Part shown: in pieces, positions 4,885-31,091 of the stretch | Numbering within the stretch: position 1 is the stretch's first letter | Layout of the letters: every line of letters starts with the position of its first letter | From: a virus | DNA length: 35,306 nucleotides | Virus record (IMG/VR): IMGVR_UViG_3300044846_002352 | Location: 1 to 35,306 of that record | Direction: 5' to 3' (one strand) | The notes under the pieces: model-generated | Databases searched by the model: none | Told to the model about the DNA's origin: nothing | What the model saw: the letters and a program-made list of their open reading frames with translations, nothing else | Program-made: the position numbers and the translations under genes

Positions 4885-4905
4885 TTTGAAATTTAGAATT
4901 TCAAA
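4885..4905. promoter_or_regulatory. 9-bp dyad touching the gp32 promoter
   Basis: A perfect inverted repeat TTTGAAATT / AATTTCAAA with a 3-nt spacer abuts the -35 element of the gp32 promoter and overlaps the last codons and stop of the upstream 220-aa gene. Such a dyad could be an operator for a regulator of gp32. It could also be a weak terminator hairpin for the upstream gene, although no T-run follows on the minus strand. Confidence 0.45.
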
Positions 4906-5555
4906 GGTTTGTATTGTGTTTCTTCTCCGTAATTGTTAAAAGTTGTTTTAATTTCTGAAGGAGTAAAATCTTCAACTTCATCAGTTGTTAAAACATATTC
5001 ATTTTTTCCTGACTTTTCAATATCTTCTTGTTTGTCAACAAAAAAGTCAGTCAATTTTTGATTGAATGGCCCTGAGTCTAAACTTCTTAGTTCAAGTTTT
5101 TCTTGTGGAGTTTTTTCTCTGTATTTTTCAATCTTAGCTTCGATATCATTTAATTTAGTAAAAATATTTTCCATATTACTTAACTTACTTTCTAAATCAG
5201 TTAATTGGTTAAATAAATTATTAAAATATTCTTCTTGTTTTGTTTCAATATTTTGTTGTGATTTTACTAAATCAGTAATTTCTAATTCTTCAGTTTCTGA
5301 TGATTCATTTTCGTCATCAAGTTTTTCAACATCAGGGTCTGATGCCACATCAATAGGTTCTGCAGTTGGTGGTGTTGCCGCTCCCATACCAGCGTCAGGT
5401 GCCGGTGGTAAAGCTTCAGCATCAGGTGCCGGTGGTAAAGCCGCGTTAGGGTCACCTTCAGGTGCCGGTGGTAATCCCGTTTCTTGTTCGGTAATATAAT
5501 TATTAATTTTATTATATCTTCTTAACTCTTCAATAATTGTTTCTGAAATTGCCAT
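4893..5555 (-). CDS. Unknown acidic Pro-rich coiled-coil protein (220 aa)
   Basis: Not recognised. Residues 1-25 form an amphipathic start (MAISETIIEELRRYNKINNY then ITEQE). Residues 28-56 contain three imperfect LPPAP repeats rich in Pro, Ala and Asp. Residues 60-95 are strongly acidic, and 95-148 look like a coiled coil (regular Leu/Ile/Phe heptads in DLESKLSNMENIFTKLNDIE). The tail ends in YGEETQYKPLKF. The ATG lies 1 nt after the stop of the 74-aa gene, so the two are coupled. It follows the baseplate genes in the same direction. A structural, internal-head or scaffold-like role is possible: the Glu-rich N-terminus with I-T-E resembles T4 prohead-protease sites. This is inference only. 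Confidence 0.75.
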   Translation of the reverse strand: MAISETIIEELRRYNKINNYITEQETGLPPAPEGDPNAALPPAPDAEALPPAPDAGMGAATPPTAEPIDVASDPDVEKLDDENESSETEELEITDLVKSQQNIETKQEEYFNNLFNQLTDLESKLSNMENIFTKLNDIEAKIEKYREKTPQEKLELRSLDSGPFNQKLTDFFVDKQEDIEKSGKNEYVLTTDEVEDFTPSEIKTTFNNYGEETQYKPLKF

Positions 5556-15200: not shown

Positions 15201-17017
15201 ATGTATTTCTTTACCTGTCCATTAATAACATTTGTTCCACCATTTTTAAAAGGTGTTATATTAAGATTGTAGGTACTATCTAAAACAGAATAAGTAAACC
15301 TTCTAATGTTACCATTAGTTTCTAAACCTGAGTCATTAGCAACTGTTTTTTGTAAATTAGCATATGTGTAATAAGGTTTATCTTTTGTAAAAATTCTACA
15401 ATATTCTTGTCCTACCTCAGTACCTGAGTTATTAACATATTTTTTAACTTTTGAACCTTTGGTTAATATTTTATAACCATCTGAAAATACTTTAGACGCT
15501 TGGTTAATCGCATTTCCAACATGTCCTAATCTATCCGCTCCTTGTGCCGGTGTTGAGTTAATTAATCGTTGTGTAACGTCTAAAATAGAACCAGGTCTAA
15601 ATGTATAGTTTGTAGATAAAACTTGATTATAAGAAGATGCCAGTGGTGCGAAATTTGGATTGTTACTTAATAATTGTCCACCTTGTCCAACATTTCTTCC
15701 AATCTCAGGTTTTGTAAATTCAGTAATCCAAACAAATCCACCATCAAAAGAAGGTTTTTGTTCGTAATTTAATCCAGCTAAACCGAATTGAAAATTTTGG
15801 TCACCTTCATATAATATACCAACTTTATCAGGCCCATATACAGGAGCTTGTGTTGGTATTCCAAAAGCGTCAATAGGTGAAGCGTTTGGTGGTGATACAA
15901 TATTTGTAATATCTGTTTCTTGTCTACCAACATAAAGGTTTCCTATTGAAGTAAAATTATCAAATAAATTATTAATAAAATTACCTACCTGTGTAGATGT
16001 TATAGCGTAGTTAGGTTTAAACCTATTATAGTTAAGAGCATTAAATAAAACAGACTTAGTACCAGCTCCCGTGTTTTGTAAGAACTTAATTGACGGATTT
16101 GGTCTATTAATAATATTACCACCACCTAAATTACCTAAAGCTTGTAGTGGTCGTAATCTTAAAAGTTCAACATCTGAAAAATAACTTCCCTCAATAGGAG
16201 ATGCGGGTAAATAAGTACCACTTAACTTTTGTATAAAAAACGCCGCGTAATCTAATAAACCATCAGGTTTTGTAATTGTATAATCTCTATAAATAAAAGG
16301 TTGTTGTCCTGTTGCTAATAATGTTGCATTAAATGGATTAGTAAGAGTGTCAAGATTAATCGCCCCAAGAGTATTTCTTTCAATTTCTCTAGCAATACGA
16401 GACTGAGTCGCCTCTCTTAAACTTTGAGCTGCTAATTGTTGTAAAAACGAGTCGTTTGCTAACGCTGCTTCACCAAATAATATTTCGTAAATAGTATAAT
16501 CTCCCTGAACAAATATGATTGGGGCGGCTCTACCATCACCATAAACTTGTGAACCGGCAGATAACTTTCCAAGTATTAAATCCGATGTAACAAATAAATC
16601 TTCATAACCTTCGGGTGGTAAGTATCTATTAATAACTTCAACATTATTAATAAACTGTTCATTGTTCGACACTATTCTATCTGACTGTAAACTATATGGT
16701 TGTGAAGTACCTAAAGGGTTATTTTCAATACCCGTTCCACCAGGAAGGACTGTATTATCAACAATCAAAGCCCCATCAAAAAACTGACCTGCGGGACTAT
16801 ACAAATTCATTCTTGTACTATATGCTGGTTCAATATATAAATTTGAACTTACACTTTCAGAATCTGCTGGTGAATTGTCTTGTAATTTAATTGGATAGTT
16901 TTGTAATCCTTGTGGAGCAGTAAAATTACCCTGAACACTATACGGTGCTAAATTCCTTGCAACTAACGCTTTTCTAAATTGTTCCGAATTGTTGAATGAT
17001 AAGAATTCTACAGCCAT
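12239..17017 (-). CDS. Giant baseplate/tube-adaptor protein with OmpA-like segment
   Basis: A 1592-aa structural protein. Around residues 1010-1165 lies a recognisable tail-adaptor-like domain: GRPPILILRVGDFYNCKI, then LSFTYEQLDFNPEGIGVQP, then VSVKLGFKMIGGHG and LQNALSFNFYANT. This resembles the beta domain that precedes LysM in contractile-tail adaptor proteins. Around 790-915 a stretch with NINSAFFDG, EVKIDLKATN and NLGEDRKQSIIDYFNQL follows the order of an OmpA-type peptidoglycan-binding domain; this is tentative. The C-terminal 400 residues are Ser/Thr/Asn-rich and helical. T4 has no single protein of this size in its baseplate, so it may combine functions of several wedge proteins. It is followed by the LysM-like gene (TGATG) and preceded by the tape measure gene after a short gap with a TATTTATA motif. 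Confidence 0.75.
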   Translation of the reverse strand: MAVEFLSFNNSEQFRKALVARNLAPYSVQGNFTAPQGLQNYPIKLQDNSPADSESVSSNLYIEPAYSTRMNLYSPAGQFFDGALIVDNTVLPGGTGIENNPLGTSQPYSLQSDRIVSNNEQFINNVEVINRYLPPEGYEDLFVTSDLILGKLSAGSQVYGDGRAAPIIFVQGDYTIYEILFGEAALANDSFLQQLAAQSLREATQSRIAREIERNTLGAINLDTLTNPFNATLLATGQQPFIYRDYTITKPDGLLDYAAFFIQKLSGTYLPASPIEGSYFSDVELLRLRPLQALGNLGGGNIINRPNPSIKFLQNTGAGTKSVLFNALNYNRFKPNYAITSTQVGNFINNLFDNFTSIGNLYVGRQETDITNIVSPPNASPIDAFGIPTQAPVYGPDKVGILYEGDQNFQFGLAGLNYEQKPSFDGGFVWITEFTKPEIGRNVGQGGQLLSNNPNFAPLASSYNQVLSTNYTFRPGSILDVTQRLINSTPAQGADRLGHVGNAINQASKVFSDGYKILTKGSKVKKYVNNSGTEVGQEYCRIFTKDKPYYTYANLQKTVANDSGLETNGNIRRFTYSVLDSTYNLNITPFKNGGTNVINGQVKKYMLSLENLAWKDTPEYNQLPSAEKGPNGGRVMWFPPYDLTFDDSSTPSFNETDFIGRPEPIYTYKNTKRSGSLNFKIIVDHPSVLNLIVNKELQNQSNSTVTSIVESFFAGCKRYDIYELAQKFSSLSLGTIDEVYQQVLESLDTSESDKVDALTQIPQEDNSGPKELPNLSSYVGNALYFDSDPRDSNYNQPYPDIYEYEVVLNINSAFFDGVDASKSFLENTITPNYENFIELAQEIADALVNDNEVKIDLKATNFGVGNFSGPESQNLGEDRKQSIIDYFNQLTYQGTNISDYVEAKRLKIDVNSGTIDNYKPKDSSQTYNCNGNNIADEYNVIRVACSALVISKITVQPYTPFGTRVAKSVSEGYNNTIGLKQVPVADFQSKLKNVTKRLIRELLNEQDYFETIKNSDPFLYDGIKQRIKFFNPLFHSITPEGFNSRITFLNQCVRPGRTIPTTTNNQGGVKNKDAFNTNFGRPPILILRVGDFYNCKIVPDTLSFTYEQLDFNPEGIGVQPTIVSVKLGFKMIGGHGLKEPIEKLQNALSFNFYANTEVYDERADATDETEVESFILSNQQSSNVSQANAAFANSTPSMSNQLNTQITNNGGTQAGNITNSQTSGGVETGTLLYGGLFDNTVVYTQNYFNNIESFVTKIIQTTNYGVYKQVSSEKQFLIGSLNSLDTPVTNVKILGKMFNYNNYLLNVANELSTEITNGTDFLISALIINNVSTSDIRAVRANYISQVSNQVNSIISKISSQIQSVSNTQVSIYQNYRKLDLICSSTDGKITSLGSPYVYTLTGLPDGVSDTLTSIRTDYIKLASDIQSYYTLLNSNDIIIDVTTPSTTFIPISSQNITGNLNRFFTLFCNEIIDNNSRQSLINNLTLNLVSDTIQLTKSIVETTINGLVPSFTIEKNAQTNKVDTFFNSPDYLSYKNYNPQVSNQSIVGKTRNFSYTSAGATPTQNENLKNLYSNVNVNLDKTTFNGKIIFD

Positions 17018-17030
17018 CTATACTTTTTTC

Positions 17031-17038
17031 TATAAATA
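17031..17038 (-). promoter_or_regulatory. TATTTATA motif before the 1592-aa gene
   Basis: Coding-strand TATTTATA, 13 nt before the ATG at 17017, in the 41-nt gap between the tape measure stop and this gene. It has the same spacing as the copy before the 74-aa gene. Confidence 0.4.
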
Positions 17039-17058: not shown

Positions 17059-19071
17059 TTATACAGTTAGACCATAATCAGAACCAACTACTCCAATTTT
17101 ATCTCTTAATGTTCTTAAAGTATCGTCATTATTAAATGCCGATAGTATTGCGTTTTTAACTTGTAAATCATTTGAATTGGCATTTACATCTAATGTAATT
17201 TTAATTTCTTTAGGTGATGATTTAGTTTCAGGTGTTGTATTATTAGCAAAAACTTGTCCTGAGGCACCTATTGATTGAGCTAACATTTCTTGATTCACAG
17301 CCATTAATAAATCACCTTTGTCTAAAGAAAATTTACTACCATTTGCATTTACAACAACATCTTTTTCTTCAGGTAGGTTAGTTCCAGTTATGAAGTTTAA
17401 GACACTTTTTATTATCGGAAATTCCACTGCCGCAGTTGTTAATACATCACCAATTGCTTTAAGGTCTACGCCCACAGTAGTTAAAGTTTTATCTACTATT
17501 TCCATTTTACTTGCCACTGAACCTAAAGCAGCATTAAATGGGTTCTGTTCAATTTTTTCACCTAATTGTGTTGCAACATCAATATAATTTTCACCTATTC
17601 CCAAACCAATATCCGTAATAAGTTTTTTTATTGCCTCATCTGTCATTTGCAACTCACCTTTATTTAATTTAGTTAAAGTTTCATAAGTTGTTGTACCAAA
17701 TTCTCTTTTATTTGATTTATCTAATGAAAATTTTGAAAAACCAACCTCATACGCCTTTATTTGTGCTTCAACCGCGGATTTCAAATAATCTTGACCTTCT
17801 TTGGTTATTGCATACTGAGTTTGTATTGTCGCATTTAAGGAAGCGTTTTGATTAACTAATGTTTCAGTATAGCTTAACTGTTGTTTAGCAACATCAACTA
17901 ATTGTTTTTGTGGGTCGTCAAGATTTTGTTGTTTTTTAAGTTCATTTAAATAATCATATTGTCCATCTTTAAGCTCACTCAATCCTTTTTCCACTGTTTT
18001 ACCAGATTCTGGGTCGGTAAATTTAACAGTATATTCACCTTTAGCTTTATTAAATTCCGCAAGATTTGCAACCAACATTTTATCTTCTTCAGTTGCGTTA
18101 GGCATTAAACCTGAAAAGTCAATTTCACTCATTTTCTTTTCAATTTTTGCAGACTCTAATGCCATTTTTTCAAATTCAGCTCTGTCAATACCTAAAGCAG
18201 TTGCGACTTCACCAAGTTGTCTTCTTGCTTCAGGCATAATTTGAAACTTACCTGTTTTTTCATCAAATTTTGTAAAGGTTTTGGATAATTCGGATAATTG
18301 GTTTTGTAACTCAGGTACATTATTTTGAGCTAAATCCATTAATTTTAATGGGTCAAGCAACGCACTTGAAGTTGCACCTAACCTTTGTAAAGTAGATGCA
18401 ACGTCTATTGCAGACTCAGGTGAAAATAATTTGTCAGCAACCGCCATGGTTTGTGAAATATCAACTCTCATTGCTGCCGCTTTTGCCGCCATTTTAGCCA
18501 TACCTTCAACACCAGTACCAAACCCGTACCTATTCATTTTGTCTAAATTATTAACAACCATTGCCGAAACTACTTGAGCATTGACACCCATACTATTTGC
18601 AGTATTGTAAACTGTTCTCATTTCTTCTTCAATATGGGTTGTCTCCATACCAGCGTTTCTAAAAGAAGTTTCTAATGTTTTTGCTGCAACTCCTGTAACT
18701 TGCGATACCGCAAATAACTTTTCAACATTTTCAGTACTTAAAACAATCGTTCTATTTGTTGCTTCAATGTATTCTTTTTGTAATCTATTGATGTCTTCTT
18801 GTTTACCACCCATTGCAGTTACTTCTGTAACTGCTCTACCTAGTTCTTGTTTTAAAAGCTGTGAATATTCCCTAGTAACACCCATACTTTTAACCAATGA
18901 ACCCATATTTTGGTCCATTTTAGTTAGATATTCCGCAGAATTTTTAAAAGCAAATGCTTGAGATTTAGTTACTTCTAAAAAATCATTAGCAAGCTGGGTC
19001 AATCTAACATAACCAATTTGTTGACCTTGTAAATTATTAGGGTCTGTATTTCCGTCATTTGGATTGAACAT
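17059..19071 (-). CDS. Tail tape measure protein
   Basis: A 670-aa, mostly alpha-helical protein located between the chaperone-like genes and the baseplate genes, the usual position of a tape measure. Residues 110-260 contain TGVAAKTLETSFRNAGM, ARVD-like helices (AAKAAAMRVDISQTMAVADK) and STLQRLGATSSALLDPLKL, which resemble the N-terminal domain of TP901-type tape measure proteins. A helical middle follows, then a short hydrophobic stretch near 550-580 and a compact C-terminus ending KIGVVGSDYGLTV. At about 0.15 nm per residue, 670 aa would set a tail near 100 nm, similar to T4 (gp29, 590 aa). The start ATG at 19071 follows a TATTTATT motif by 13 nt. Confidence 0.85.
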   Translation of the reverse strand: MFNPNDGNTDPNNLQGQQIGYVRLTQLANDFLEVTKSQAFAFKNSAEYLTKMDQNMGSLVKSMGVTREYSQLLKQELGRAVTEVTAMGGKQEDINRLQKEYIEATNRTIVLSTENVEKLFAVSQVTGVAAKTLETSFRNAGMETTHIEEEMRTVYNTANSMGVNAQVVSAMVVNNLDKMNRYGFGTGVEGMAKMAAKAAAMRVDISQTMAVADKLFSPESAIDVASTLQRLGATSSALLDPLKLMDLAQNNVPELQNQLSELSKTFTKFDEKTGKFQIMPEARRQLGEVATALGIDRAEFEKMALESAKIEKKMSEIDFSGLMPNATEEDKMLVANLAEFNKAKGEYTVKFTDPESGKTVEKGLSELKDGQYDYLNELKKQQNLDDPQKQLVDVAKQQLSYTETLVNQNASLNATIQTQYAITKEGQDYLKSAVEAQIKAYEVGFSKFSLDKSNKREFGTTTYETLTKLNKGELQMTDEAIKKLITDIGLGIGENYIDVATQLGEKIEQNPFNAALGSVASKMEIVDKTLTTVGVDLKAIGDVLTTAAVEFPIIKSVLNFITGTNLPEEKDVVVNANGSKFSLDKGDLLMAVNQEMLAQSIGASGQVFANNTTPETKSSPKEIKITLDVNANSNDLQVKNAILSAFNNDDTLRTLRDKIGVVGSDYGLTV

Positions 19072-19094
19072 AAAATGTTTTATTAATAAATAAC

Positions 19095-19289
19095 TTAACT
19101 TTGATTTTTATTACTATTTAAATCAATCAACTTGTTAATTAAAAACTTTCTTTGGAAAGTAGGCATTTTTAAAAAGTCCGAATACGACATTGTTAATTGT
19201 CGTGACAGATAAATGTATTCGTCTAAAAGATATTCTAAATAATCAGAAGAAAGGTCGAAAAAACTCTGCCCCAAAGGTAATACGTGCAA
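19095..19289 (-). CDS. Second-frame chaperone-like ORF overlapping the gp26/gp51-like gene
   Basis: A short frame that overlaps the end of the 250-aa gene by 47 nt, in the +1 register relative to it. If independent it would start at TTG 19289 (64 aa), preceded by AAGG. The likelier real content is residues 12-64 (DLSSDYLEYLLDEYIYLSRQ and SYSDFLKMPTFQRKFLINKL), a helical acidic segment. The frame joins the upstream gene at TTT TTT CGA (19263-19255), so a +1 shift would give a 299-aa fusion and a -2 shift a 300-aa fusion. Many tailed phages make two tail-assembly chaperones from such overlapping frames just upstream of the tape measure, which is exactly where this lies. An internal ATG (MSYSDF) is a third possibility. 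Confidence 0.6.
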   Translation of the reverse strand: MHVLPLGQSFFDLSSDYLEYLLDEYIYLSRQLTMSYSDFLKMPTFQRKFLINKLIDLNSNKNQS

Positions 19290-19995
19290 GTACCTTTTTT
19301 CCAGATGGGGCTATAATTTCTTGTGTTAAATCTAATCCTGGTGAATTTTCTTGTAAAAATCTTGTAATGTACTTTGAATCCATAATTGGCATCCTTTCTA
19401 TAAACTTAACAATTTCCCCCTTATCGGTATTCCCGTCTATTGATACTATTTGTTTTTGTAATCTCCAAGTTACAACTGGAACAGTCATGTTTTTTGGATA
19501 AGATAATTCTCTTTCGTTTAATTCTTTAATTTCACCAAAATTAAGAATTTTTAATTTTACATTTACGTTAGATTTTGGAAGAATTGTTTCAAAATAACCA
19601 TTTTCATCAGGGTTAACTAATGGTTTAATAAAGTTAATTTCATCTAACACAATAGAAACTTCAAAAGGTTTTTGTGTTTCAGGGTCAATTAAATTTAATT
19701 TATACTCAGGTGTAAATGATGTATTTCTTAAAAACAATAAAATTGCTTGGATGTCGCCATCTAACATTTCTTCAATCTTCAAATCAGGTTCATAAACTTT
19801 ATTTCTGATTAAATTATAAATTATTTGGTCTCCACCAACGTTACTAGCACTTGCTAAAATATTTTCATCAGCAGCAGTTAAAAAACCAACTTTAACCGAC
19901 TTTTTTTTATTTTTATAAAATTTTCCCTGACTCGGTAATTGAATTACGTCGTGAGGTAAGTTGAAATTCATTTGATTTACACTATTATCTTCCAT
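19243..19995 (-). CDS. gp26/gp51-like baseplate or tail-assembly protein
   Basis: A 250-aa protein beginning HDVIQLPSQGKFY (about residues 15-27), then a VKVGFLTAADENILAS segment, QIIYNLIRNKV, and GDIQAILLFLRNTSFTPEY. This succession (LPS-G-Y, a KV-LT-xxE-xxL region, ii-xlixn, D-fLLl-lR) matches the T4 baseplate hub assembly proteins gp26/gp51. The Cys-rich CPxCG segment found in many relatives is replaced here by LNLIDPETQKPFEVSI without cysteines. It lies between tail tube and tape measure, so a tail-assembly chaperone role, as lambda gpG plays, is also plausible; the two ideas may be the same thing in different phages. Its 3' end overlaps a second frame (see the entry at 19095). ATG 19995 is the only sensible start. 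Confidence 0.75.
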   Translation of the reverse strand: MEDNSVNQMNFNLPHDVIQLPSQGKFYKNKKKSVKVGFLTAADENILASASNVGGDQIIYNLIRNKVYEPDLKIEEMLDGDIQAILLFLRNTSFTPEYKLNLIDPETQKPFEVSIVLDEINFIKPLVNPDENGYFETILPKSNVNVKLKILNFGEIKELNERELSYPKNMTVPVVTWRLQKQIVSIDGNTDKGEIVKFIERMPIMDSKYITRFLQENSPGLDLTQEIIAPSGKKVLARITFGAEFFRPFF

Positions 19996-20690: not shown

Positions 20691-21506
20691 TTAATATAAT
20701 TTCTTTTCTCCTCCATGTGTTGATATTGTTTGAATAATATTTTCTGGGTCTTTTGATAATTCATCTTTAACTTTTTCCAAATTTCTTAAATCATCATCTG
20801 AAAAACCTATTTTAGGTATAAATCTATTACTAATATCATCTTTAAACATTATTGGTTTTTTTAATAAGTTTGCCAAATATTTTACATACTGTTGAAACTC
20901 TCTTAAAGCTTCAACCTTTCCTTTTTCAGGACTTTGGGCAGAACCGGCTCCAAATGTTACAGGATAATACTTATTCATATCCATATAAGCATTTATAAGT
21001 TCTTTGTCCGTCATATCTTCTTCACCTGCAAACTTTCTAAACTTTCTTAAATTTTTAACTAATTCTTTTTTAGATATCCCCTTAAAATTAGTTTCAATCA
21101 TATTTTCAATCGCCCTACGTAAAGCCAATGGTGAATGTCCTCTTGCGGTAACTATTGAAAAGATTGAACCCCCATTAATCGCTTCAACAAAGTCGTCCCA
21201 TGCTGGACCTTCTTTTGCCATCATTGCGTCAATAATGAACCTCTTATCCCCTTTGGTTCCAAAATTTCTGAACGGGTCGTCAGCAAATCCAACAACTGTT
21301 TTATTTTTATATTCAAAAGGTTCAACTCCAACTTTTACACGATATTCCGCAAAGTCTTCCGTTGACATACCAACTTCTTTATTATCTTCGGTACGAAGTA
21401 TTATTTGTGTCGGCATTGTAAGAATATTATCATCCCAATCAAAAGCATAATATTTTAAATCGGGTGTGATTTCTTCATCAAATTCTTCTACTAAAAATAT
21501 TTTCAT
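20691..21506 (-). CDS. HAD-superfamily hydrolase-like protein between tube and sheath
   Basis: A 271-aa protein with all HAD signatures: motif I AFDWDDNIL (Asp23 nucleophile, Asp25 acid/base), motif II in SIVTARGHSP (Thr120), candidate motif III lysine around 195-197 (PEKGK) or 222, and motif IV IGFSDDDLRN (Asp237-239). HAD enzymes usually remove phosphate from small molecules, nucleotides or nucleic-acid ends; the substrate here is unknown. The insertion between residues 40 and 110 would form the cap. The N-terminus MKIFLVEEFDEEITPD is an acidic add-on before the enzyme fold and resembles the start of the T4 internal protein Alt, so packaging in the head is conceivable (inference). It sits alone between two structural genes, downstream of the sheath terminator, with TATTTATA 3 nt before its ATG. 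Confidence 0.85.
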   Translation of the reverse strand: MKIFLVEEFDEEITPDLKYYAFDWDDNILTMPTQIILRTEDNKEVGMSTEDFAEYRVKVGVEPFEYKNKTVVGFADDPFRNFGTKGDKRFIIDAMMAKEGPAWDDFVEAINGGSIFSIVTARGHSPLALRRAIENMIETNFKGISKKELVKNLRKFRKFAGEEDMTDKELINAYMDMNKYYPVTFGAGSAQSPEKGKVEALREFQQYVKYLANLLKKPIMFKDDISNRFIPKIGFSDDDLRNLEKVKDELSKDPENIIQTISTHGGEKKLY

Positions 21507-21509
21507 ATC

Positions 21510-21517
21510 TATAAATA
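21510..21517 (-). promoter_or_regulatory. TATTTATA motif before the HAD gene
   Basis: Coding-strand TATTTATA ending 3 nt before the ATG at 21506. It is too close to the ATG for an ordinary -10 element with a leader, so transcripts would be nearly leaderless or the motif serves another purpose. Confidence 0.3.
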
Positions 21518-26657: not shown

Positions 26658-28418
26658 TTGACAACTTCCACAGGACATTTAAGTATTGAACAACAAGCAA
26701 TATCTATTCTTGAAAATTATCAGGGGTCAAATAATTATATTCTTAAATTAAAGAAACAGATTGAGTCAAATAAGAAGTATCTCCCAACGAGGGCACAATG
26801 TGATTACGTTATTGACTTCAATTTAATAGTTCCAAAAGTTGCTAAGAAATGGGTCGAGATTGACTCATACTTTTCACAAAAACTTGTTGCTGATAATCCA
26901 TTTATTAAGGAACCTGATAAAATCTATGTTGAAAAGATTTTAATTGAGAAAGATAAATCATATCACATTTGGGGTAAAATTTTTAGTGGAGAAACTATTC
27001 ACGATTTTTGGATACCAAAGGCTGCTGTCATTAAACAATACACCGAAAACTTGGTTGATGTTGATTATACAAAATATGAAAACCGACCACCACTTGCTCA
27101 CCAAAAAGAAGCAATTGAAAAGTTATTAAAAAACGACAAGTTTATCTTGGCAGATGATATGGGACTTGGTAAAACAACAAGTACTGTTATTGCGTCGTTA
27201 GAAAGTGGGGCGAATAAAGTGTTAATTATTTGCCCGGCATCACTTAAAATAAATTGGGAAAGAGAAATCAGAAACTATACTGATAAAACAATTTACATAT
27301 GTGAAGGTAAGAAGTATGAACAAGCTGATTATGTAATTCTTAATTACGACATACTTAAAAACTTCCACGACCCAAAAGATAAATTAAACTCAATAATCCT
27401 TAATTCAAAATTTGACTTGGTTGTCATTGATGAAGCACATTACGTTTCAAACGCTCAAGCTCAAAGAACAAAAATTATAATGGATGTAACCAAGGATATT
27501 AAAAAACTTTGGTTATTGACGGGAACACCAATGACTTCTCGTCCCATGAATTATTATAATATTTTGAAACTTATTGATAGTCCTGTGAGTCAAAACTGGC
27601 AAGCATACGCAATTAGATATTGTGGTGGATATCAGTTTAGAGTGGGTGGTAAAAAGATTTGGAATGTAACTGGTGCGTCCAATTTAGAAGAATTAAGAGA
27701 AAGAACCTCTCGTCAAATTTTAAGAAGATTGAAAACTGAAGTTTTAGATTTACCTGAAAAAATTATGACACCTGTTTACCTTCGTTTGAAATCAAGATTG
27801 TATGAAGGGTTGATGGGTGAATATTATGATTGGTATAATAATAGACAAGATGAGTCAAGGTCTCTTTCAGTTCAGTTTTCAAAACTTATGAAAGTAAGAC
27901 AAGTTATTGCAGAAGAAAAAATACCGATTACAATTGAACTTGCTGAGAACATTATTGAACAGGGTAAGAAAGTTATTATCTTCAGTAACTTTACCGAACC
28001 TTTAAAAAAGATACACGAACATTTTGGTAAGAAGTCTGTTTATTTAGATGGTTCAACATCAAAACCTGCAAGACAAGATGCGGTTGATAAGTTCCAAGAG
28101 AGTGATAAAATACAAGTTTTCTGTGGTAACATGAAAGCTGCGGGTGTTGGATTAACACTCACGGCAGGTGAGGCGGTTATTATGAATGACTTATCATTTG
28201 TTCCCGCAGAACATAGTCAGGCGGAAGATAGAGCCTACAGATACGGACAAAAAAATTCAGTTTCAATATACTACCCACTATTTGAAAACACGATTGAAGG
28301 TGTTATCTACGATATTCTTATAAAGAAGAAACAGATTATTGGTACGGTTATGGGTGATATAGACGAAAGTTCTGTGGATATTGTTGAACAAATACTTAAC
28401 GAAATCAATAGTAAGTAA
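26658..28418 (+). CDS. SNF2-family DNA-dependent ATPase/helicase
   Basis: A 586-aa SF2 ATPase of the SNF2 type. Motif I DDMGLGKTT (166-174, Lys172), motif Ia ICPASLKINW, motif II DEAH (258-261), motif III LTGTP (287-291), an RRLKTEVLDLPEK segment after the first RecA lobe, then in the second lobe VIIFSNFTEP, GNMKAAGVGLTLTAGE and motif VI QAEDRAYRYGQ. Residues 40-125 form an N-terminal domain before motif I. Such enzymes move along double-stranded DNA and remodel forks or anneal strands; in a T4-like phage it may do the work of UvsW. No ATG precedes motif I, so the start must be a rare codon; TTG 26658 is the best, 6 nt after the frame opens. It is divergent from the gp14-like gene and 13 nt before the SOD fusion. 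Confidence 0.9.
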   Translation: MTTSTGHLSIEQQAISILENYQGSNNYILKLKKQIESNKKYLPTRAQCDYVIDFNLIVPKVAKKWVEIDSYFSQKLVADNPFIKEPDKIYVEKILIEKDKSYHIWGKIFSGETIHDFWIPKAAVIKQYTENLVDVDYTKYENRPPLAHQKEAIEKLLKNDKFILADDMGLGKTTSTVIASLESGANKVLIICPASLKINWEREIRNYTDKTIYICEGKKYEQADYVILNYDILKNFHDPKDKLNSIILNSKFDLVVIDEAHYVSNAQAQRTKIIMDVTKDIKKLWLLTGTPMTSRPMNYYNILKLIDSPVSQNWQAYAIRYCGGYQFRVGGKKIWNVTGASNLEELRERTSRQILRRLKTEVLDLPEKIMTPVYLRLKSRLYEGLMGEYYDWYNNRQDESRSLSVQFSKLMKVRQVIAEEKIPITIELAENIIEQGKKVIIFSNFTEPLKKIHEHFGKKSVYLDGSTSKPARQDAVDKFQESDKIQVFCGNMKAAGVGLTLTAGEAVIMNDLSFVPAEHSQAEDRAYRYGQKNSVSIYYPLFENTIEGVIYDILIKKKQIIGTVMGDIDESSVDIVEQILNEINSK

Positions 28419-28419
28419 G

Positions 28420-28427
28420 TATTTATA
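28420..28427 (+). promoter_or_regulatory. TATTTATA motif before the SOD-fusion gene
   Basis: Coding-strand TATTTATA, 4 nt before the ATG at 28432, in the 13-nt gap after the ATPase stop codon. Confidence 0.35.
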
Positions 28428-28431
28428 ATTA

Positions 28432-29937
28432 ATGAAATCGTTAAATTTAGTATCAGAGTCATTAGTTAGTCGTATATTAGGTGAGGAAACTCAACCTGAA
28501 ACCAAATTTTTTATTAACGAAATGAAAACCATAGGTATTGATAAATTACCTTATGGTTATGCATCATTAAGAAGATTTATTGACCCTGAAACAATGAAGT
28601 TTCATTACCAAAAACATTACAAGGGGTATGTGAAAAAATTAAATTCAGCTCTTCGTAAAAAAGATTATGGAGATGTTGAATTGGAGAACATTGTTAGACA
28701 AATTTCAAAGTATAATACAACAATAAGAAATAATGCAGGTGGAGCATTTAACCACGCATTATTTTGGAAGATGTTATCACCCACACCACAAAAACCAAGT
28801 GGTGAGGTATTCGAAAAGATTGTTAAACAATTTGGAACATATCGCAACTTCAAAACTAAATTTGAAGAAATTTCAAGAAAAAGATTTGGTTCAGGATGGT
28901 GTTGGTTAGTTTTAACCGATACAGGTAGATTAAAAGTTATGTCTACATCAAATCAGGACAACCCACTTATGAATATAATAAATAAGGGTGGTTTTCCGTT
29001 GTTAGGTTTGGATTTATGGGAACACGCTTATTATTTAAAATACCAAAACAAAAGAGACGAATATATTGAGAATTTTTGGGAGGTAATTAACTGGGAATTT
29101 GTTAACGAGTTATACAAATCAAAAACTGAAAAAAAATTGAACGAATCAATTTCACCAAAAAAACTGTTATACGAAAACGTATCTGATTACTCAGATATTT
29201 TTAGTAACAATAAAAATGTTCTTTGGACTTATAGAAGATGTATTGATAATACATTGAAGAGAGTTTTATCTGATAAATGGCATGAAAACAATCAATACTC
29301 TGAAGGTTCATCTTCAGGTATCTACGACTTAGAACAACCAGGTCGTTCAGTAATTAATAAATTAAATACGAACTATATTGGGTTTAAAATTTTAGTTGAT
29401 GATTTAAATGTTGTTCTTACAAAAATAAATAAACCTACATTAAATTTTATTGGAGCAACACCTTCACAACAAATAGAAGAAATAAATAAATTTTGTTCTT
29501 ATATGGAGTTTTTTGGTGACAGAATTTTTAAAGGGTCTAAAACTCTTGATAAAATTATGAAGCTTTTAAATAGAACACATGAAAAAGGTGGTAAACTTGA
29601 GGAGTATGTCGCTAACAAAATCAATCAAGAATTTGGTGAAGGAACTGCGGTTGTAGTTGGTAGTTTAGGTTCAAAAGAAGATTTTGCAGGAACTGATTTA
29701 ACAGTTAATTTTGATAATAAAATACAAAATGCTCAAGTTAAACCAATTTTAAATATGGAAGTAATTGAAGGATTCTATCATATTAAAATTAGAGGATTTG
29801 TTAAAAAATTTAATACCGACTTATTAATTTTCTCAAATATTAACAAAGAAGTTTATATTTTTAAAAACAAAACTGTCGCATTTAGTTCAAGTATGTTTAA
29901 AATCCCAACACAAGATTTAATTTATACTGTGAATTGA
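28432..29937 (+). CDS. Mn/Fe superoxide dismutase fused to a PD-(D/E)XK-like domain
   Basis: A 501-aa fusion. Residues 38-228 are a complete iron/manganese superoxide dismutase, which converts superoxide to peroxide and oxygen. Metal ligands are His58 (in KFHYQKHYKGYV), His108 (in AGGAFNHALFW), and Asp194 and His198 (in GLDLWEHAYY); Tyr66 is in the gateway position. Gly104 together with Gln175 (in STSNQDNPL) is the manganese-type pattern. Residues 230-500 are foreign to SOD. Within them GKLEEYVANKI (Glu390/391), GTDLTV (Asp422) and AQVKP (Gln435, Lys437) have the order of a PD-(D/E)XK nuclease core. Residues 1-36 add an acidic N-terminal extension (SESLVSRILGEE) that could be a capsid-targeting peptide. 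The SOD call is firm, the nuclease call is inference, and the combined role is unknown. It lies between the ATPase and the gp13-like gene. Confidence 0.9.
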   Translation: MKSLNLVSESLVSRILGEETQPETKFFINEMKTIGIDKLPYGYASLRRFIDPETMKFHYQKHYKGYVKKLNSALRKKDYGDVELENIVRQISKYNTTIRNNAGGAFNHALFWKMLSPTPQKPSGEVFEKIVKQFGTYRNFKTKFEEISRKRFGSGWCWLVLTDTGRLKVMSTSNQDNPLMNIINKGGFPLLGLDLWEHAYYLKYQNKRDEYIENFWEVINWEFVNELYKSKTEKKLNESISPKKLLYENVSDYSDIFSNNKNVLWTYRRCIDNTLKRVLSDKWHENNQYSEGSSSGIYDLEQPGRSVINKLNTNYIGFKILVDDLNVVLTKINKPTLNFIGATPSQQIEEINKFCSYMEFFGDRIFKGSKTLDKIMKLLNRTHEKGGKLEEYVANKINQEFGEGTAVVVGSLGSKEDFAGTDLTVNFDNKIQNAQVKPILNMEVIEGFYHIKIRGFVKKFNTDLLIFSNINKEVYIFKNKTVAFSSSMFKIPTQDLIYTVN

Positions 29938-29955
29938 TATTTATATAAAAATATC
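29936..29955 (+). promoter_or_regulatory. TATTTATA motif inside a small palindrome before the gp13-like gene
   Basis: TATTTATA (29938-29945), 15 nt before the ATG at 29961, forms one arm of an inverted repeat GATATTT-N6-AAATATC in the 23-nt gap between the two genes. The repeat begins at the SOD-fusion stop codon. It could act as a promoter element or a weak hairpin. Confidence 0.35.
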
Positions 29956-29960
29956 ACTTC

Positions 29961-31091
29961 ATGAATACAATAATAGCAGAACCTTACAGAAGTCAACTAT
30001 ACACAAAAGTTAGACACGTATTAGGAGCACCAATTCGTTCAATTGAATTAGAAGATGAACAAATGGACTCAATCTTAGAATTTTCTATTGGGGACTATTC
30101 TCAATATGTTCAAGATTGGTTAATTGAATCACAATGGACTTCATTATATAATTTAAATTTAGATACACAGTCTTTATCAAGAGCATTTCTTACAAAAAGT
30201 TTAGATTACGAAAATAGATACGCGCAAGCATACTCTAAAATAGTTGGTTTACAATCATCACCACTTGGTGATTGGGAACTTAAAAAAGACTTTATTACAT
30301 TAGTTCCGAATCAACAGATTTATGAAATTCCTGCAGGTCGTGAAATTAATGAATTACTATGGTTCACACCGGCAACTCTAAACAACGTATTATTCGACCC
30401 ATGGAGTTTTGGGGCGTTAGGTGGTACAGGTATAGGTGGACCTGGTGGTTTTGCACAAATGGGAGGTTCGGGTTCATACTTTATGATGCCAGCATTTGAT
30501 ATGTTATTAAGGATGCAAGAGATTAATATTCAGAGAAGAATTATTGGTGGTGATTTAACTTATAGAATTACAGGGTTACCTAATGGTAAAAAAGCAATTC
30601 ATTTAATGCAAACACCAGGTGGTAAATTTGATTTTGGTAACTCATCATTAAACCATCACCAAGTTTGGTATTGGTATTACGATGTTGGTCCTCAAGATAG
30701 AGACGCTTGTTTAGCTGCTAACCCTGATATTATTAAACTTCCTTCTGATGTTCCGATGAACTCAATTGGTTGGGTTGACTTAAATGACCCCGCACAACAG
30801 TGGGTTAGAAGATATTTTGTCGCAAGTTGTAAAGAAACATTATCAAAAGTTAGAGGAAAATATTCAGGAAACTTAAAGACACCTGACTCTGAATTAACTA
30901 TGGATTACGCTACTTTAGCAACTGAGGGTAAAGATGAAAAAACAAAACTTATTGAGGAATTAATTGGTGCCGATGGTAGATTAACAAGATTAAGACCTGA
31001 AAAAATAATGGAACGTGAGGCGTTAATTGCTGAAAATCTTAACAAACAAATGAAGTTTAGAGCGTTCCCAAGAAATATGTATGTTATTTAA
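29961..31091 (+). CDS. 13: Neck / head-tail connector protein, T4 gp13-like
   Basis: A 376-aa protein whose N-terminus (TKVRHVLGAPIRSIELEDEQ, then MDSILEFSIGDYSQYVQD) has the adaptor pattern of gp13-type neck proteins: a helix with R-x-L-G-x-P, an I-x-I-E-L strand, a DEQ turn, and a long helix ending in a tyrosine-rich segment. The centre (about 145-175) is a Gly-rich loop (GALGGTGIGGPGGFAQMGG), followed by a VWYWYYDVG strand, and the C-terminal 90 residues are helical. Proteins of this type bind the portal and receive the tail via gp14. It is on the plus strand, away from the minus-strand gp14- and gp15-like genes from which the SNF2 and SOD genes separate it. T4 gp13 has 309 residues. The SOD-fusion gene lies just upstream. 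Confidence 0.75.
   Translation: MNTIIAEPYRSQLYTKVRHVLGAPIRSIELEDEQMDSILEFSIGDYSQYVQDWLIESQWTSLYNLNLDTQSLSRAFLTKSLDYENRYAQAYSKIVGLQSSPLGDWELKKDFITLVPNQQIYEIPAGREINELLWFTPATLNNVLFDPWSFGALGGTGIGGPGGFAQMGGSGSYFMMPAFDMLLRMQEINIQRRIIGGDLTYRITGLPNGKKAIHLMQTPGGKFDFGNSSLNHHQVWYWYYDVGPQDRDACLAANPDIIKLPSDVPMNSIGWVDLNDPAQQWVRRYFVASCKETLSKVRGKYSGNLKTPDSELTMDYATLATEGKDEKTKLIEELIGADGRLTRLRPEKIMEREALIAENLNKQMKFRAFPRNMYVI

Follow-up and report, generated by a model that had tools for sequence, protein, structure and literature searches.

Gene organization and conservation of the SOD-nuclease fusion

The stretch of DNA that was analysed (the window; 35,306 nucleotides) represents a virus record of 35.3 kb with T4-like gene content. 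PHROGs matches in it included a tail sheath, a DNA polymerase, a DNA helicase and a head-tail adaptor-like protein, Pfam identified a T4 baseplate protein, and gp41-, RNase H-, UvsX- and gp32-like genes were recognized by eye only. Translation of positions 28432–29937 on the plus strand gave one uninterrupted protein of 501 residues, with a Mn/Fe superoxide dismutase (SOD) half followed by a C-terminal half of a predicted nuclease type. The gene is located between a DNA helicase (26658..28418, plus strand; phrog_62, E 1.6e-108) and a gene for a neck (head-tail adaptor)-like protein (29961..31091, plus strand; partial match to phrog_211, E 3.4e-8).

Relatives were collected by a first scan of viral contigs, from which the best 80 of at least 597 stretches encoding relatives of any query part were taken, and by extra scans with C-terminal queries, which added 5 loci and then the best 80 of 482 relatives, one of them already fetched. 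The resulting 165 viral loci, among them the copy of the window itself (L001) and a contig that occurs twice (L079 and L082), encoded 114 distinct proteins that were reduced to 48 representatives with less than 90% identity. Both halves were present in a single ORF at 165 of the 165 loci, and no stand-alone copies of either half were found among them. The fusion is, therefore, not an assembly error, a possibility which the initial annotation had kept in mind, and the search that it proposed for the same fusion in other phages gave a positive answer. It is an old and fixed arrangement. The neighbourhood was also conserved: the helicase was the next gene upstream in 46 of the 48 representatives (another gene in 2), and the neck-like gene was next downstream in 42, with the contig edge reached in 2 and another gene present in 4.

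Since only the best 80 of at least 597 and the best 80 of 482 relatives were kept, other architectures may exist. A marine phage protein of 1113 residues (A0A8D9CCA0) aligned over the C-terminal model with a TM score of 0.82 by query and 20% identity, and is probably an example of the C-terminal domain in another architecture. Among the best 80 of 236 relatives in genome_contigs no fusion with the C-terminal half was found in cellular genomes, the patterns being those of the SOD half only; five of these genome matches (L114, L124, L131, L151 and L161) were long, each with more than one SOD-like ORF. The initial annotation knew of no described fusion of this kind. This holds for the open-licence literature searched, where neither a packaged phage SOD nor a SOD-nuclease fusion was found, but a homologue had already been deposited as 'superoxide dismutase' (A0A6J5L953, 501 residues, from an uncultured Caudovirales phage), with 93% identity over the C-terminal 253 residues compared.

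The superoxide dismutase half

The predicted mature SOD corresponds to residues 31–238 (28522..29145, plus strand; 208 aa, 24.7 kDa) and was recognized by Pfam, VIA-align and its metal ligands. Pfam placed Sod_Fe_N at residues 36–116 (E 8.5e-23, 81.1 bits against a cut-off of 27) and Sod_Fe_C at residues 122–226 (E 3.3e-42, 143.1 bits against a cut-off of 20.9), while beyond residue 226 of the window protein it gave no match. Both models matched 27 of the 27 aligned family members at E up to 1. The metal ligands His58, His108, Asp194 and His198 were invariant in all 48 representatives, as were Gly104 and Gln175, which we take to be a sign of the manganese type, and the seven second-shell SOD residues checked. 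The four ligands, Gly104 and Gln175 stand where the initial annotation had put them. Structural comparison of the SOD half by VIA-align gave Z 21.5 with 2a03 (rmsd 2.5 over 191 residues), and the full-length model, built with 27 sequences, reached Z about 20 with many solved SODs, the SOD half being matched over its entire length. Family, ligands and predicted fold support its assignment as a Mn/Fe SOD with predicted dismutase activity.

A tree was calculated for 24 of the 48 representatives, together with 80 SODs from genomes and 4 from other phage records. The 24 phage SODs were separated from the genome SODs on a branch with an SH-aLRT of 100, which fits one old acquisition, the root being unsure because of the long branches of the other phage sequences. 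The best 80 of the 236 genome SOD loci were mostly from Bacteroidota, judged by title.

The C-terminal half

The C-terminal half includes a conserved, mostly helical region, residues 249–383 (29176..29580, plus strand), predicted with high confidence and containing a GxYDxE..GRSxxNxLNTN stretch, and a putative PD-(D/E)XK-type nuclease core, residues 384–501 (29581..29934, plus strand), with E390, D422 and Q435-x-K437, as indicated by Foldseek, VIA-align and conservation. Residues 249–501 modelled alone (AlphaFold, 47 sequences) gave a pLDDT of 91.7 and a pTM of 0.81. In the Foldseek search of this model against the PDB nothing reached E 0.001 or better, and the top match was the homing endonuclease I-Ssp6803I (2ost; E 2.7e-3, probability 1.00), of which four chains led the list, followed by an unrelated dehydrogenase in the fifth place (E 0.092) and then by archaeal Hjc resolvases. 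VIA-align with Hjc 2wcw gave Z 8.2 over 105 residues (rmsd 3.7), and the first 20 rows were all what we take to be nucleases or nuclease complexes, with moderate scores and only 2 chains reaching Z 8. The region thus folds confidently and its best matches are nucleases, so the alternative of an unrelated fold, raised by the initial annotation, was not borne out.

E390 was found in 48 of the 48 representatives and D422, Q435 and K437 in 47 each, with a gap at these three in L032, which the end of its contig truncates; the four residues are those picked out by the initial annotation. They follow the order E...D...xK, with Gln435 instead of D/E as the residue before xK. I-Ssp6803I has the same replacement of E/D by Q at this place. 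Pfam and PHROG models other than those of SOD matched at most 3 of 27 members; the best Pfam match of a single member for this half was MC4 (E 3.8e-4), and among isolate phages nothing matched it at E up to 1. Conservation and the predicted fold support a putative PD-(D/E)XK-type nuclease, for which cutting activity is predicted.

The substrate of such a nuclease can be read in more than one way. It might be a DNA-packaging or branch-resolving, Hjc-like enzyme required while the head is being filled, and the SOD delivered with it would protect the DNA. The archaeal Hjc resolvases are among the closest folds and a structure-specific nuclease would spare the packaged genome, while the structural match is moderate and extends to a homing endonuclease and to restriction enzymes; we consider this role unlikely, though the strongest of the alternatives. 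It is compatible with packaging of the protein into the phage head, the reading developed below, and so competes with it on function only.

Protease-type motifs at the domain boundaries

All 499 triplets of the protein were scanned for [IL]xE in the alignment of the 48 representatives. With a threshold of 60%, the motif was present at four positions only: 30 (48 representatives), 197 (47), 238 (43) and 248 (43). Site 197 belongs to the L-W-E-H motif of the SOD and its middle W is invariant. At sites 30, 238 and 248 the outer two residues were kept, while the middle one was of 7, 9 and 7 kinds, respectively, and these three sites lie just ahead of the SOD and then on both sides of a short spacer before the nuclease. 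The first one (residues 28–30, in 48 of 48) ends a predicted N-terminal propeptide, a putative capsid-targeting sequence of residues 1–30 (28432..28521, plus strand) finishing with F-F-I-N-E. The spacer, residues 239–248 (29146..29175, plus strand), stands between the predicted prohead-protease sites LNE|S (238) and LYE|N (248), identified by [IL]xE conservation. At least one strict [IL]xE was present in the linker of 46 of the 48 representatives, L030 and L032 having VxE, and the second linker site was absent from L061 and L085.

Residues 1–30 are outside the SOD match, which starts at residue 36 in Pfam, and the full-length model had a pLDDT below 50 at residues 1–44 and 234–251. A cut at 30 would leave an N-terminus of ordinary SOD length (M/A-K-K-I-G-I-E-K-LPY). 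The view of the initial annotation that the SOD continues into the second domain without a break is correct for the gene and, judging from the conserved spacer with two [IL]xE sites, probably incorrect for the mature protein.

An internal start at Met31 was considered as a general explanation of the first site and rejected: residue 31 was Ala rather than Met in 4 of the 48 representatives, while E30 was kept in all. In a loose control, [IL]xE occurred within 4 residues of the place of E30 in 5 of 84 other SODs, namely in 3 of 80 genome SODs and in 2 of 4 SODs of other phage records. In one of the latter (L285) the motif precedes the annotated start, and in the other, from phage Callisto (L286), it is I-A-E at residue 13. 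[IL]xE is a short motif that often arises by chance, and the argument is one of conservation and position.

The same motifs bear on a second alternative, in which the protein works uncut in the infected cell as a bifunctional enzyme, with SOD and nuclease staying joined, for example to detoxify superoxide near replicating or degraded DNA. The presence of one ORF at all 165 loci and two intact active sites would be expected from such an enzyme, and SOD can matter during infection, since a host sodB mutant lowered the plating of a T4-like Campylobacter phage to 0.30 (PMC6024767). However, it leaves unexplained the conservation of [IL]xE, with its middle residue free to vary, at three boundaries and the position of the N-terminal 30 residues outside the SOD match, and we regard it as improbable, somewhat more so than the Hjc-like role.

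Prohead protease and capsid genes

In T4, the protease gp21 cuts after L/I-X-E, removing the N-terminal propeptides of internal head proteins, many of which enter the host along with the DNA (PMC9026906). The corresponding genes were surveyed in 16 chosen phage records with the SOD-nuclease gene, mostly the longest ones. Peptidase_S77, the gp21 family, was found above the Pfam cut-off in 6 of the 16, and the same 6 records contained the main match to the gp23 capsid protein; of the other 10, nine had no capsid match and one had a capsid fragment at the contig end only. The Peptidase_S77 protein of the phage contig G002 was identified by PHROGs as a head maturation protease. All four distinct capsid N-termini run L-I-N-E|A, close to the F-F-I-N-E of the SOD-nuclease. 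By analogy with T4, the capsid INE|A is likely a cleavage site and hence would indicate the specificity of the protease.

The upstream TATTTAT motif

The sequence TATTTATA (28420..28427, plus strand), located 4 nt before the ATG of the SOD-nuclease gene, is a candidate late-promoter or start-proximal motif and reads as TATAAATA on the minus strand. In 46 of the 48 representatives (all but L274 and L283) TATTTAT was present in the 45 nt preceding the ATG; the rate for these loci is about 0.018 per 45 nt, and letter shuffling gave a mean of 1.8 of 48. It recurred within 60 nt past the stop, ahead of the next gene, in 42 of 46. We take TATTTAT to be part of the reverse complement of the T4 late promoter sequence. 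The T4 late promoter TATAAATA itself occurred 11 times on both strands of the window against 7.3 expected, which is not significant; the conserved upstream motif is its reverse complement, i.e., the reading on the sense strand. Motifs of the TATTTAT type were also seen in the window at 29938–29945, 17031–17038 and 21510–21517.

ORFs with TATTTAT within 60 nt upstream made up 8 of 22 in the window, 60 of 222 in G002 and 41 of 137 in a second phage contig, G005, and were often structural: across these three the motif precedes sheath, tube-like, portal, protease, scaffold-like and terminase-like genes. It also precedes a replicative-helicase-like gene at 35–1405 and so is not confined to structural genes, while no copy was found ahead of the capsid gene of G002 or G005.

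The frequency of [IL]xE near protein N-termini was compared with 200 shuffles in G002 (242 kb) and G005 (174 kb). The 98 ORFs with TATTTAT contained 68 [IL]xE at residues 2–21 against 33.1 after shuffling (sd 5.2) and 85 at residues 11–45 against 51.3 (sd 6.0; 0 of 200 shuffles), with little excess at 46–80 and none over shuffles at 81–115. At residues 11–45 the 261 ORFs without TATTTAT contained 148 against 102.9 (sd 9.7; 0 of 200 shuffles), with a smaller and weaker excess at 46–80. Since the excess at 11–45 is also present in ORFs without the motif, it does not by itself mark cargo; its presence in both sets supports N-terminal sites in these phages generally, not only in late genes.

PPK2-lysozyme and other tagged proteins

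A second protein with the same layout was found in G002. It consists of 595 residues with PPK2 (115–338) and phage lysozyme (476–549) and is encoded on the minus strand (L194:7410-9196, corresponding to G002 227409-229196). Its relatives (L288–L313) share with it the N-terminal tag MRNLLTEVSKMKNIMGL and an I/V-N-E junction. A different part follows the junction in L299–L302, L306 and L309, the lysozyme-only versions L311–L313 have almost the same tag followed by I-N-E, and the PPK2-only versions L303 and L308 end just before the junction; the domains evidently join and part at the motif. In terms of sequence, the PPK2-lysozyme protein shares the tag-and-junction layout of the SOD-nuclease.

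Other G002 ORFs begin with tags such as MKKVIRLTESDL, which are candidate targeting tags. Small ORFs with shared tags (MKKVIRLTESDLVKIVKKVIKEN, MKYIITESQ, NITEEE...) were located at about 220–240 kb of G002 (L194) and in G005 (L196). A loose tag pattern, which also catches some non-tags, fitted 26 of the 262 G002 ORFs and 7 of the 155 G005 ORFs, and a tag search in isolate phages with a 24-residue query, which is weak, gave no match. The window itself encodes a proline-rich protein at 4893–5555 (minus strand) that starts with MAISETIIEELRRYNKINNYITEQ, helix-like and ending in ITE.

Several further genes of these contigs were recorded. One preceded by TATTTAT in G005 (18179–19543; L196) encodes a nucleotidyltransferase (49–113, E 1.8e-4) and a peptidase M23 (281–371) with LKE at 247 between them. 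Another one, in G002 (16483–16854; L183), also with TATTTAT, matches DUF5856 and a 'starvation-inducible transcriptional regulator' PHROG; by eye its product is Dps-like, perhaps another oxidative-stress protein. Finally, a protein with YAFDWDDNIL, HAD-phosphatase-like by eye, is encoded in the window (20691–21506, minus strand) and in G005 (96894–97850). The gene is flanked by tube-like and sheath genes and has a TATTTAT motif, the N-terminus of the protein varies, and the window copy gave no Pfam or PHROG match.

Putative hosts and other viral SODs

The best capsid matches among phage records were an uncultured 484 kb phage, the Microcystis phage Mel-JY01 and the Flavobacterium phage immuto, all with less than 60% identity. 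A gene for ribosomal protein S21 was present in both G002 and G005, two of the phages with the SOD-nuclease gene (L192:14570-14752, plus strand; L197:8254-8445, minus strand), located among the protease and portal genes of the head cluster and on the opposite strand to them. From the capsid matches, the likeness to S21-encoding phages and the kinship of the SOD, the hosts are probably Bacteroidota.

SODs together with other oxidative-stress genes were reported in freshwater phages, where they were read as protection against reactive oxygen (PMC6802176), and SOD and oxidative-stress genes were also reported in putative Microcystis viruses (PMC12542629). Stand-alone SODs were found here in the isolates Vibrio phage 2.275.O and Pseudomonas phage Callisto. 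Such cases would agree with a third alternative, in which the gene is an auxiliary metabolic gene that helps host or phage against reactive oxygen during infection, with a passive or unrelated C-terminal appendage and no packaging. However, the isolate SODs are without such a C-terminal partner, the nuclease residues of the fusion are conserved as well as the SOD ligands, and the gene adjoins a neck-like gene and has a late-type motif, which makes this alternative very improbable.

The Callisto SOD (L286, OR142618.1, CDS 1935-2483 of the locus) has MNDSIKKYISIAE|AASS before the SOD core, a start that looks like a short targeting propeptide in a phage outside the studied clade. Relatives of Callisto such as PA5oct are in culture; the word 'superoxide' does not occur in the accessible text of the PA5oct paper (PMC6950013).

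Discussion

By analogy with T4 and from the sequence features described, the SOD-nuclease is probably a head polyprotein that is targeted to the capsid and divided by the head protease into two enzymes to be delivered. The gene product would be an internal head polyprotein of a T4-related phage group, in which residues 1–30 would target the capsid and bring the precursor into the core of the prohead. There, a gp21-type prohead protease would cut after [IL]-x-E at 30 and at 238 and/or 248, and these cuts inside the head would free a Mn/Fe SOD of normal length (208 residues) and a separate PD-(D/E)XK nuclease of 253 residues. Both enzymes may remain beside the packaged DNA and accompany it into the next cell, like the T4 internal proteins and Alt. 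The SOD might then scavenge superoxide as infection begins or shield the DNA inside the particle, and the targets of the nuclease might be host DNA, competing DNA or branched DNA. The initial annotation had left the choice between protecting DNA, damaging DNA and being a virion protein; the boundary motifs, the protease and the capsid INE favour a packaged internal head precursor. Against packaging counts the fact that a free nuclease in a DNA-filled head would need a restraint. Explaining the fusion as an assembly or frameshift artefact of two genes has practically no probability left, with a single ORF at all 165 loci, on many contigs and in 114 distinct proteins.

A broader proposal can be put forward tentatively, namely that the phages of this group possess an enlarged system for delivering enzymes. 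Short tags ending in the prohead-protease motif would stand at the start of many late genes, polyproteins with the motif at each joint, such as SOD-nuclease and PPK2-lysozyme, would be cut apart in the head, and the products would enter the cell as a kit, injected together with the DNA. Of the members seen here the SOD-nuclease, which has a fixed slot, would be the most conserved.

If the packaged-precursor reading is correct, a single precursor of an antioxidant enzyme and a nuclease is turned by the phage head protease into two injected enzymes, in a group of uncultured phages that has been sampled widely. The range of T4-type internal proteins, so far one of factors for host takeover and against restriction, would thereby come to include metabolic enzymes that arrive as the phage enters the cell. 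Protease motifs conserved at domain boundaries would then allow packaged phage proteins to be predicted from sequence alone, and the release of several cargoes from a single capsid-targeted chain would represent a natural design.

Comparison with known systems

The closest parallel is with the T4 internal proteins IPI, IPII, IPIII and Alt, whose capsid-targeting sequences are cut by gp21: the SOD-nuclease has a predicted N-terminal propeptide ending in [IL]-x-E and a candidate late-type motif upstream of its gene, and records with it contain a gp21-family protease and a gp23-type capsid. It differs as a predicted double precursor, from which cuts at the internal sites would free two enzymes for putative packaging, and its predicted propeptide has about 30 residues, in contrast to the 10–20 residues quoted for T4 (PMC5694885).

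The SOD half agrees with the Mn/Fe SOD family (PF00081/PF02777) in its four ligands, seven second-shell residues and predicted fold (VIA-align Z about 20), while the phage fusion differs from it by the predicted propeptide and the C-terminal nuclease-type domain. The latter shares the predicted core fold and the E...D...xK order with the PD-(D/E)XK nucleases, nearest to I-Ssp6803I and archaeal Hjc, and differs from them by Q before xK and by an extra helical region of about 135 residues.

The placement of S21 among the protease and portal genes on the opposite strand in G002 and G005 is shared with the bS21-encoding freshwater Bacteroidetes phages (PMC9723584), a likeness that may suggest a freshwater habitat; 'superoxide' is absent from the main text of that paper. 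Among other viruses, SOD is listed as a virion protein of giant viruses (PMC9405923), and the chlorovirus PBCV-1 has a Cu/Zn SOD that is made late and packaged in the virion (PMC7019647). PBCV-1 thus resembles the phages studied here in encoding a late SOD that is packaged, as predicted for the phage enzyme, while both the SOD family and the virus are unrelated, and the accessible text of that source mentions neither a nuclease nor a polyprotein.
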